Source: Victivallis sp. Marseille-Q1083
GTDB taxonomy: Bacteria; Verrucomicrobiota; Lentisphaeria; Victivallales; Victivallaceae
Length of the DNA stretch: 64,000 bases
Assembly: GCF_903645315.1 (NCBI RefSeq)
Contig: NZ_CAHJXL010000001.1
Location: 1,540,001-1,604,000 of the forward strand
Reading direction: 5' to 3'
Both the position numbers and the translations under genes were made by a program. This document shows positions 2,908 through 5,178 of this stretch, one piece after another (within the stretch, counting starts at the first letter, position 1; the number at the start of each line of letters is the position of its first letter). Under the pieces are notes generated by a model. That model had not been told where the DNA came from, did no database searches, and worked only from the letters and a program-made list of their open reading frames with translations.

Positions 2908-3006
2908 TTGAATTCTCTTGCAATATCGACGGAAAAACGCCGACGGTTCAAAAAAAATCGCACCAAGCTGCGCTGCCCGGTGCGAAAAGCAGAATCGGCG
3001 AAAAAA

Positions 3007-3147
3007 TTATTTTTCGCAACCGCAACCTACTTCATAGGTCTTGCGGTCCTTGAACTCTTCCTTCTTGCCCTTGTTCCAGTTGGACACCGGCCGGAAATAG
3101 CCGCAAACTCTGCTGTACACTTCAGTTTTTTCTCCGCACTTAGCCAT
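3007..3147 (-). CDS. 46-residue glycyl-radical protein: detached C-terminus of NrdD
   Basis: This small gene encodes what is normally the C-terminal tail of class III ribonucleotide reductase. It begins M-A-K-C-G-E-K-T-E-V-Y-S-R-V-C-G-Y-F and continues with R-P-V-S-N-W-N-K-G-K-K-E-E-F. R-V-C-G-Y is the glycyl-radical loop, placing the radical on Gly16. C4 matches the last Cys of the family zinc ribbon, and three cysteines near the end are unusual. It has its own ribosome site (AAGGAG, 7 bases before the ATG). It is separated from the nrdD stop by 57 bases, in the same frame but with a second in-frame TAA just before its ATG, so it cannot be readthrough. It presumably docks on NrdD and is activated by NrdG. 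The two-chain arrangement is inference from sequence. Confidence 0.85.
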   Translation of the reverse strand: MAKCGEKTEVYSRVCGYFRPVSNWNKGKKEEFKDRKTYEVGCGCEK

Positions 3148-3204
3148 TTTTTACTCCTTCAATTTGGATGTTGTCCCGCCGTTTTCGACGGAATGAATAA
3201 TTCT

Positions 3205-5178
3205 TTATGCTTCCAACGGGCACTCGGCATGTTCCCCCGGGATGTAGCCATGAACCGGACAGATGCTGAATGACGGCGTCAGCGTGAAATACGGAATATG
3301 ATAATTTTCGGCCATGCGGCGAATCAGGCTGGCCACCTGCCTGCCGCTGTCGAGCTTCTCGCCGACAAAAGCGTGAAACACGGTACCGCCGGTATAAGCG
3401 GCCTGCAGCGGCTCCTGCAAATCGAGCGCCTCGAACAAATCCGCCGTGTAACCGACCGGCAACTGCGTCGAATTGGTATAATACGGCGTCGCGTCGCCGG
3501 CACAGATAATATTCGGGAATTTCTTGCGGTCCAGCCGGGCCAGCCGGAAACTGGTCCCCTCCGCCGGCGTCGCTTCCAGATTGTAGATGTGGCCGCTGGC
3601 CTCCTGGAAATCCTGAATTTTCTTCTTCATATGCTGCAGCACCCGCTGCGCGAAATCCCGCCCCTCTCCATCGCAGATCGAGCAGCCGAGGAAATTCAGA
3701 CACGCTTCGTTCATGCCGACCAGCCCGATGGTGCTGAAATGGTTGTTCAAGGTACCGAGATAAGTTTTCGTATAGGGCAGCAGGTCGCCGTCCAGATAGC
3801 GCTGCACCACCTTGCGCTTGATTTCCAGCGATTCCATCGCCATGATCATCAGCCGGTCCAGCCGGGCGAAGAAGTCCGCTTCGTCCTGGGCCAGGTAACC
3901 GAGCCGCGGCATGTTGATCGTCACCACACCGATCGAACCGGTCTGCTCGCCGGCGCCGAACAGGCCGCCGGTTTTCTTACGCAGTTCGCGGACATCCATC
4001 TGCAGCCGGCAGCACATGCTGCGGACATCGCCGGGATTCAAATCGCTGTTGATAAAGTTCTGGAAGTACGGCAAACCGTATTTGCCGGTCACTTCGAAAA
4101 GCAGCCTGGCGTTGTCGCTTTCCCAGTCGAAATCCTTCGTGACGTTGTAAGTCGGAATCGGGAAGGTGAAAATCCGCCCGTCGCGGTCGCCTTCGGACAT
4201 CACTTCCAGAAACGCCCGGTTGATCAGGTTCATTTCTTCCTGATAATCGCCGTAACAGCCCTCGTCCACCACCTGACCGCCGATGATCACCGGCGAATCT
4301 TTCAAATCCTCCGGCACCACCCAGTCGAAGGTCAAATTGGTGAACGGCGTCTGTCCCCAGCGGCTGGCGATATTCAGTCCGAAAACAAACTGCTGGATGT
4401 TCTGCTTGATCTCCTTGTAGGACAGCCCGTCGTGCCGGACGAACGGCGCCAGCAGCGTATCGAACGAATTGAACGCCTGAGCGCCGGCCCATTCGGTCTG
4501 CAAAGTCGACAGGAAATTGACGATCTGGCCGAGCGCCGTATCGAAATGCTTGGCCGGCGCCGCACTGGCCCGGCCGCCGCGGCCGCGGAACCCCTCCTGC
4601 AGCAGCTGGCGCAGGCTCCAGCCGGCGCAATAACCGACGATGCCGCAGGAAAGATCGTGCAGGTGAAAATCGCCGCTGGAATGCGCCTCGGCGATCTCGG
4701 CCGGATAAATATTGGCCAGCGTATAATTGGCGATCACCGTACCGCTGACATGGTTGAGCAGACTGGCATAGGAATAGCCCGAATTGGAGTTTTCATTGAC
4801 CCGCCAATCCTCGCGGTCGATGTAGCTGGCGACCAATTCCTGGACATCCATCATCAACTGCTTGTGATCGCGCAGTTTGTCGTGCTGGGCGCGATAAAGG
4901 ATGTAAAGTTTGGCCGCTTTGGTCAAGCCGCGTTTGATAAACGCCGCCTCCACCTGGTCCTGAATGACCGCGATATCCGGCACTTCGCTTTCACCGAATC
5001 CTTTGTCGGCCAATTCAAACAGAACATCCTTGCAGATCGTCTTCGCCAATTTGTCATTGGCGGTGCCGGCCGCTTTCAGCGCCTTGCCGGCCGCCAGAGT
5101 AATGCGTTCCGGATCGAAATCGACAATCCGGCCGTCCCGTTTACGAACTTTCGTCAACTGCAACAAATGCTCCGCCAT
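3205..5178 (-). CDS. nrdD: Anaerobic ribonucleoside-triphosphate reductase, catalytic chain lacking the glycyl-radical tail
   Basis: Class III RNR reduces ribonucleoside triphosphates to deoxyribonucleotides without oxygen. Residues about 7-95 are an ATP-cone (V-R-K-R-D-G-R-I-V-D-F-D). The ten-stranded barrel follows with the S-M-C-C-R-L motif that carries the active-site cysteine, and G-S-I-G-V-V-T-I-N-M-P-R. The C-terminus stops after S-I-C-P-V-H-G-Y-I-P-G-E-H-A-E-C-P, i.e. inside the zinc ribbon and before the glycyl-radical loop, which is in the next gene. Without that partner the enzyme should be inactive. The start has a good GGAGG site. It is led by two NrdR-like boxes about 115-160 bases upstream. 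Confidence 0.93.
   Translation of the reverse strand: MAEHLLQLTKVRKRDGRIVDFDPERITLAAGKALKAAGTANDKLAKTICKDVLFELADKGFGESEVPDIAVIQDQVEAAFIKRGLTKAAKLYILYRAQHDKLRDHKQLMMDVQELVASYIDREDWRVNENSNSGYSYASLLNHVSGTVIANYTLANIYPAEIAEAHSSGDFHLHDLSCGIVGYCAGWSLRQLLQEGFRGRGGRASAAPAKHFDTALGQIVNFLSTLQTEWAGAQAFNSFDTLLAPFVRHDGLSYKEIKQNIQQFVFGLNIASRWGQTPFTNLTFDWVVPEDLKDSPVIIGGQVVDEGCYGDYQEEMNLINRAFLEVMSEGDRDGRIFTFPIPTYNVTKDFDWESDNARLLFEVTGKYGLPYFQNFINSDLNPGDVRSMCCRLQMDVRELRKKTGGLFGAGEQTGSIGVVTINMPRLGYLAQDEADFFARLDRLMIMAMESLEIKRKVVQRYLDGDLLPYTKTYLGTLNNHFSTIGLVGMNEACLNFLGCSICDGEGRDFAQRVLQHMKKKIQDFQEASGHIYNLEATPAEGTSFRLARLDRKKFPNIICAGDATPYYTNSTQLPVGYTADLFEALDLQEPLQAAYTGGTVFHAFVGEKLDSGRQVASLIRRMAENYHIPYFTLTPSFSICPVHGYIPGEHAECPLEA

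Follow-up and report, generated by a model that had tools for sequence, protein, structure and literature searches.

The glycyl radical enzymes benzylsuccinate synthase and HPA decarboxylase each include a small partner chain, and in neither enzyme is this small chain known to contain the radical glycine. In described class III ribonucleotide reductases (RNRs), the activase NrdG radicalises the C-terminal domain of NrdD, which must swing out and back (PMC12662201). This domain is disordered by dATP in the Prevotella copri enzyme (PMC11226230), but not in the S. thermophilus-type StNrdD (PMC12662201). For pyruvate formate-lyase (PFL), small stand-alone glycyl-radical proteins restore the oxygen-cleaved enzyme, namely YfiD (GrcA) in E. 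coli and its phage version, Y06I of phage T4 (PMC8683613, PMC12338860), and the existence of spare parts for glycyl radical enzymes beyond PFL has been stated as an open question (PMC8683613). RNRs made of two polypeptides are also known, from split class II NrdJa/NrdJb and from phage split nrd genes (PMC9669993, PMC3653736).

Examination of a 64,000-nucleotide stretch of the Victivallis sp. Marseille-Q1083 genome (hereafter the window) confirmed a class III RNR whose glycyl radical site is split off onto a separate gene. The nrdD body gene (5178-3205, minus strand) encodes 657 amino acids, including an ATP cone, a barrel with an SMCCRL loop, and the first half of a zinc ribbon, while the glycyl loop is absent. 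In profile searches, this body matched PF03477 (ATP cone), NF006126 (9-654), and PF13597 at positions 1-525 of 562, and its C-terminal end reads CPVHGYIPGEHAECPLEA followed by the stop codon, i.e., it lies inside the zinc ribbon and within the CPxC knuckle. The missing positions of PF13597 (526-562, E 6.3e-13) are matched by a detached 46-residue tail encoded downstream (3147-3007, minus strand), which has no other Pfam match up to E 1 and whose closest named relative is from an uncultured Victivallis (98%). This tail provides Cys4, the second half of the CPxC knuckle, and Gly16, within an RVCGY motif. Body and tail together thus display the PF13597 and ATP cone hallmarks of a class III RNR, except that the R-V-x-G-Y glycine is found on a separate chain instead of closing the NrdD chain itself.

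The tail gene is preceded by its own AAGGAG ribosome-binding site (3154-3159, minus strand), and two in-frame TAA stop codons separate the two pieces in the frame reading of the locus, at codon 658 (3205..3207, minus strand) and at codon 676 (3151..3153, minus strand), the second located between the ribosome-binding site and the tail ATG. From body stop to tail ATG, the gap is 57 nt, with body and tail in one frame. These results bear out the initial annotation, which had described an NrdD stopping in its zinc ribbon, a downstream 46-codon gene carrying the glycyl loop behind its own ribosome-binding site, and two intervening stop codons. It had also proposed that the small chain supplies both the fourth zinc-ribbon cysteine and the radical glycine, and on this point sequence and alignment agree: the M-x-K-C start of the tail aligns onto the C-P-x-C of one-piece NrdDs. 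The metal site would thus naturally be placed between the body and tail chains, with the aligned cysteines as candidate zinc ligands. An NrdG activase, a further class III hallmark, is present in the operon as an nrdG2-type radical SAM protein of 237 amino acids (2907-2194, minus strand; TIGR02495, 170.1 bits for a cut-off of 131.15). A terminator-like hairpin recognized by eye (TCGCACC...GGTGCGA followed by T8; 2950-2985, minus strand) lies between tail and nrdG2, so that the level of activase may be below that of body and tail.

Such an arrangement could represent decay, i.e., an nrdD relict broken ahead of its glycyl loop, with stray tails elsewhere being fragments in mobile elements. The stop codons between the pieces are compatible with this scenario, as is a class I/II RNR in the same genome (PF02867, C1:1108073), which indicates that NrdD is not the sole RNR and need not be essential. 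The initial annotation had raised the possibility of a complete nrdD elsewhere in the genome, but body and tail searches of this assembly (99.72% complete) identified no intact copy. The NrdD body occurs at one place and the tail at three, beside the body and at two body-less positions (C1:2004311-2004430 and C1:3166520-3166642), and a PF13597 search likewise gave three matches, the body-plus-tail place being among those listed.

Small tail genes beside tail-less NrdDs were also found in other genomes, at 93 loci (duplicates included), with body-tail gaps of 3-252 nt distributed across frames 0, 1, and 2 (34, 22, and 37 loci, respectively). An NrdD body was detected in 109 of 130 genomes of the order, and classification by hand from identity and open reading frame assigned 51 of these to the split type, 57 to the one-piece type, and one (G047) to another kind of split. 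Split bodies end soon after the first half-knuckle, with varied ends such as CPLEA, CPLEAAEGEGLKVVG, and CPHHHEDQAA, and the next gene opens with M-x-K-C on the second half-knuckle. In a tree of 68 distinct NrdD bodies, 55 were split and 13 one-piece, the split type being over-represented since sequences were picked by tail similarity. On this tree, obtained from a quick search and including some long branches, the split or one-piece state is most simply explained by five changes, of which at least three are forced by starred branches. Lineages with split enzymes include Lentisphaerota with Kiritimatiellota and Planctomycetes, Desulfuromonadales, Margulisiibacteria, a Woesearchaeote, and Theseobacter.

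A different cut was read in three loci (L253, L254, L256) of group g65, from the same phylum, in which CPFC is retained, the body ends 12 residues further on, and a gene of its own encodes a 64-residue tail; all 21 g65 genomes listed have two PF13597 matches. This cut after the full CPxC knuckle seems to have arisen independently, and the group, probably Akkermansia, has cultured representatives. In A. muciniphila, NrdDG likely renders NrdJ nonessential (PMC7733943). Some genomes also encode several tails: tandem tail genes occur in the nrdD operon at three loci (L010, L015, and L016, in G032, G003, and G020), where the second reads RVVGYFRPVASW, and the four Thermoguttaceae (Planctomycete) MAGs behind L189-L193 (G391-G394) have three or four tails each.

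This recurrence weighs directly on the trivial explanations. That the same cut is seen across many assemblies and in more than one phylum, with gaps in three frames and repeated changes on the tree, argues that the split is not a sequencing error, and recurrence combined with purifying selection rules out both error and relict. Median dN/dS reached 0.11 for operon, 0.24 for viral, and 0.18 for orphan tail cores, for 32 codons with saturated synonymous sites. Decay is further contradicted by bodies intact at 657 amino acids, by the retention of NrdG2 alongside, by conserved motifs, and by a Shine-Dalgarno-like 4-mer ahead of 91 of 99 stand-alone tails (a raw count without chance expectation), and we consider it highly improbable. 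Alternatively, the chains could be joined post-translationally or by recoding (ribosomal bypass or splicing) into a mature one-chain enzyme, as the shared frame of body and tail in the window would allow. However, body-tail gaps in all three frames at other loci rule out readthrough, frameshifting, and splicing, extending what the initial annotation had concluded from the two TAA codons, and the tail has its own ribosome-binding site, while orphan tails occur without any body. A joined mature enzyme thus seems barely credible. Finally, no homing element, intron, or intein splitting the gene is found between the halves, the 57 nt being too short for any of these.

The body-less tails of the Victivallis genome are associated with phage genes. 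One (L023) sits among Sak4-like, RusA-like, helicase, and HNH genes, in a region 100% identical over 7871 bases to the IMG/VR prophage record IMGVR_UViG_2920175905_000002, and the other (L022) is close to a gene matching a phage DNA primase (phrog_1139). By eye, the helicase and Sak4-like ORFs of L023 (88-2859 and 6474-7871, minus strand) look intein-bearing, with the helicase broken at DEC|H, the Sak4 preceded by a THN| end, and the HNH gene close by.

When the tail alignment was used to scan IMG/VR, 511 stretches encoding relatives were retrieved, from which the best 80, on 78 contigs, were kept, the other 431 being outside our counts and some of them likely one-piece NrdDs. Among these best 80 of 511, 73 had no body in the fetched DNA, six were one-piece NrdDs, and one (L119) had a tail ahead of a body; sequences outside the viral-tail regular expression were judged individually by reading, and in the frame used, two of the 80 (L159 and L160) reach a stop codon past FFRPV. 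All 37 whole virus records tested showed PF13597 tail-end matches only, with two tails in two records, and none had an NrdG2 above cut-off (one weak match; NrdG2 type only), although these records may be fragments. Many virus sequences carry the tail piece alone, apparently as a spare for the host enzyme. Among named viruses, the archaeal virus ANMV-1, from uncultured hosts, encodes a 144-residue protein made up solely of a zinc ribbon and an NrdD tail (KP703175.1, 25525-25959; L280), which is annotated as anaerobic RTR and lacks a body match in its record, while the NrdDs of phages MT835493 and Oceanotoga UFV02 are one-piece. In L250, L251, and MT835493.1, the one-piece NrdD chain continues, by eye, into a glutaredoxin-like C-terminal domain.

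Among the body-less tails, all 80 viral and all 42 orphan sequences contain Gly16, and this holds also for the 24 viral and five orphan tails lying outside the Gly-containing scan pattern. Cys4 is present in all tails covering this position (79 of 79 viral and 42 of 42 orphan). Arg13, Pro20, Gly27, and Arg35 are also present in 80 of 80 viral tails. Position 8 differs between settings: among cores chosen by a regular expression demanding Gly and other residues, operon cores mostly have Thr (51 of 56) and seldom Cys (two of 56), while Cys occurs in 25 of 63 cores from viral tails and 27 of 48 from orphan tails. This difference from operon tails would suit phage tails that are inhibitors or decoys of a real two-chain enzyme, occupying NrdD or NrdG of the host so as to halt its dNTP synthesis or to steer the activase; the lack of NrdG2 above cut-off in tail-only virus records also means that phage tails would act on host parts. 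A decoy would not need the radical glycine, however, yet this residue is invariant in viral tails along with the four others, and the tail sits in a replication module, where more dNTPs help. We therefore regard inhibition as unlikely, and favor phage tails as functional radical subunits.

The genes surrounding body-less tails point to replication and recombination modules. Across 145 body-less loci (genomic and viral, duplicates included), the clusters found within 6 kb included Sak4/helicase (47), exonuclease VIII (38), RusA (33), sigma-like (26), ParB-like (25), and SSB (22), with primase also among the neighbors. The genes of the 33 Sak4-tail pairs were overlapping or abutting in 17 cases, 215-225 nt apart in 14, and 831 nt apart in two. 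Other tails occupy unrelated phage settings, so that overall these include the Sak4 module, a Mu-like transposition gene, a DnaB helicase, and an antirepressor. For the 41 orphan loci of the 61 closest genomes, at least one of 12 recurrent phage clusters was found at 19 and none at 22. For 11 of the latter (60 neighbors), PHROGs matches included terminases, integrases, and tail fibers, given as pooled tallies without per-locus assignment, with eight further loci outside the annotation. Three orphan tails (L060, L066, and L068) lie among housekeeping genes, which rules out that all orphan tails are phage: some extra tails are host-borne second copies.

Extra tails were detected in 26 of 51 genomes with a split NrdD, two of 57 with a one-piece NrdD (G093 and G117), and none of 21 without an NrdD body (p 7e-9), counts that rest on hand classification. 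One of the 21 genomes without a body, G337, shows a tail match located where a contig ends. By genus, the association is weaker (15 of 30 split vs two of 12 one-piece, p 0.08), and phage load differs between host types, with the Sak4 family found in 16 of 51 split, six of 57 one-piece, and two of 21 NrdD-less genomes. The extra tails could accordingly be neutral passengers tracking phage abundance in certain lineages and not serving the split enzyme in particular, as the genus-level result, the unequal phage load, and the tail-bearing phages in the one-piece hosts G093 and G117 would suggest. Against this, tails are strongly conserved and found in several unrelated phage settings, and Sak4 modules have an adjoining tail more often in split genomes (17 of 25) than in one-piece (three of nine) or NrdD-less ones (0 of three), in small numbers with contig ends included. 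We consider neutral carriage quite unlikely. The direction of the association fits tails acting as spares for split NrdD, but these data do not separate it from phage abundance; since the signal is weak by genus and phage load differs between host types, we do not claim that spare tails occur only where NrdD is split, despite the strong per-genome result.

Taken together, these results support the earlier reading of a split class III RNR and probably reflect a two-chain enzyme with an exchangeable radical subunit, of which phages carry spare copies. From the detachment of the domain and the precedent of YfiD and T4 Y06I, we infer that the two chains form a complex, that the radical resides on the tail, that tails are exchanged, and that phages benefit. 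The body would contribute the catalytic barrel together with the ATP cone and one half of the zinc ribbon, and the tail the final zinc-ribbon cysteine and the radical-storing glycine. NrdG2 would radicalise Gly16 in the tail, whose loop would then insert into the barrel and pass the radical to the catalytic cysteine. Detachment would turn the swing of the C-terminal domain into association and dissociation, making exchange mechanically easy. As the tail is a separate and cheap protein, an oxygen-cleaved copy could be swapped for a new one without remaking the 657-residue body. The initial annotation had likewise suggested that the tail could be replaced after oxygen cleavage, and had proposed that its expression, unlike that of YfiD, would be constitutive. 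Phages with body-less tails beside replication and recombination genes may then re-arm host NrdD when dNTPs are needed or, alternatively, keep host NrdD running on a tail of their own choosing. If correct, the metal site and the radical active site would be assembled between chains, radical installation would be separable from catalysis, and viruses would have a cheap route to dNTPs. With a gene each for body, tail, and activase, and many tail variants including phage tails to swap, this enzyme also offers a natural reconstitution system.

The combination of a class III RNR with glycyl-radical spare parts appears to be new, judging from the open literature: neither a detached NrdD glycyl tail nor a phage copy was found described in open-access titles, abstracts, and full text, subscription papers being mostly outside this search. 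Tails of 40-60 amino acids would be missed by surveys with a length floor, and one RNR phylogeny discarded sequences below 400 residues (PMC9531940). Compared to one-piece NrdDs such as those of Thermotoga maritima (4u3e) and Prevotella copri (8p23), the split enzyme shares the ATP cone, the barrel with its Cys-Cys loop, the glycyl loop, an operon NrdG, and a putative zinc ribbon, but is made of two chains, cut between both cysteines of the second knuckle, so that metal and active sites would be common to both chains. The splits of NrdJa/NrdJb and phage nrd genes differ in being barrel/C-terminus cuts or breaks by introns, inteins, or homing endonucleases, with both halves present, and none of those described in PMC9669993 and PMC3653736 is known to give the radical glycine a gene to itself. 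We lean towards the view that RNRs built around a swappable radical subunit represent a general architecture that arose on several occasions, and the first RNR spare-part system, in which phages take over the host reductase with a 40-60-residue tail instead of a whole enzyme, possibly altering its regulation or oxygen behavior through a phage tail with an extra Cys8. The likeness to YfiD proposed in the initial annotation is strengthened by the extra body-less tails, which occur both in phages and at a number of other chromosomal sites. As with YfiD/GrcA and Y06I, the tail is a small stand-alone glycyl-radical domain that would work with a large body and the activase of that body; it matches PF13597 and no PFL-type glycyl radical domain (E up to 1), and is 46 amino acids long compared to about 14 kDa. 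Unlike these proteins, which serve a PFL that owns a glycyl domain and needs a spare only after damage, the tail would serve an RNR body that lacks this domain from the outset.
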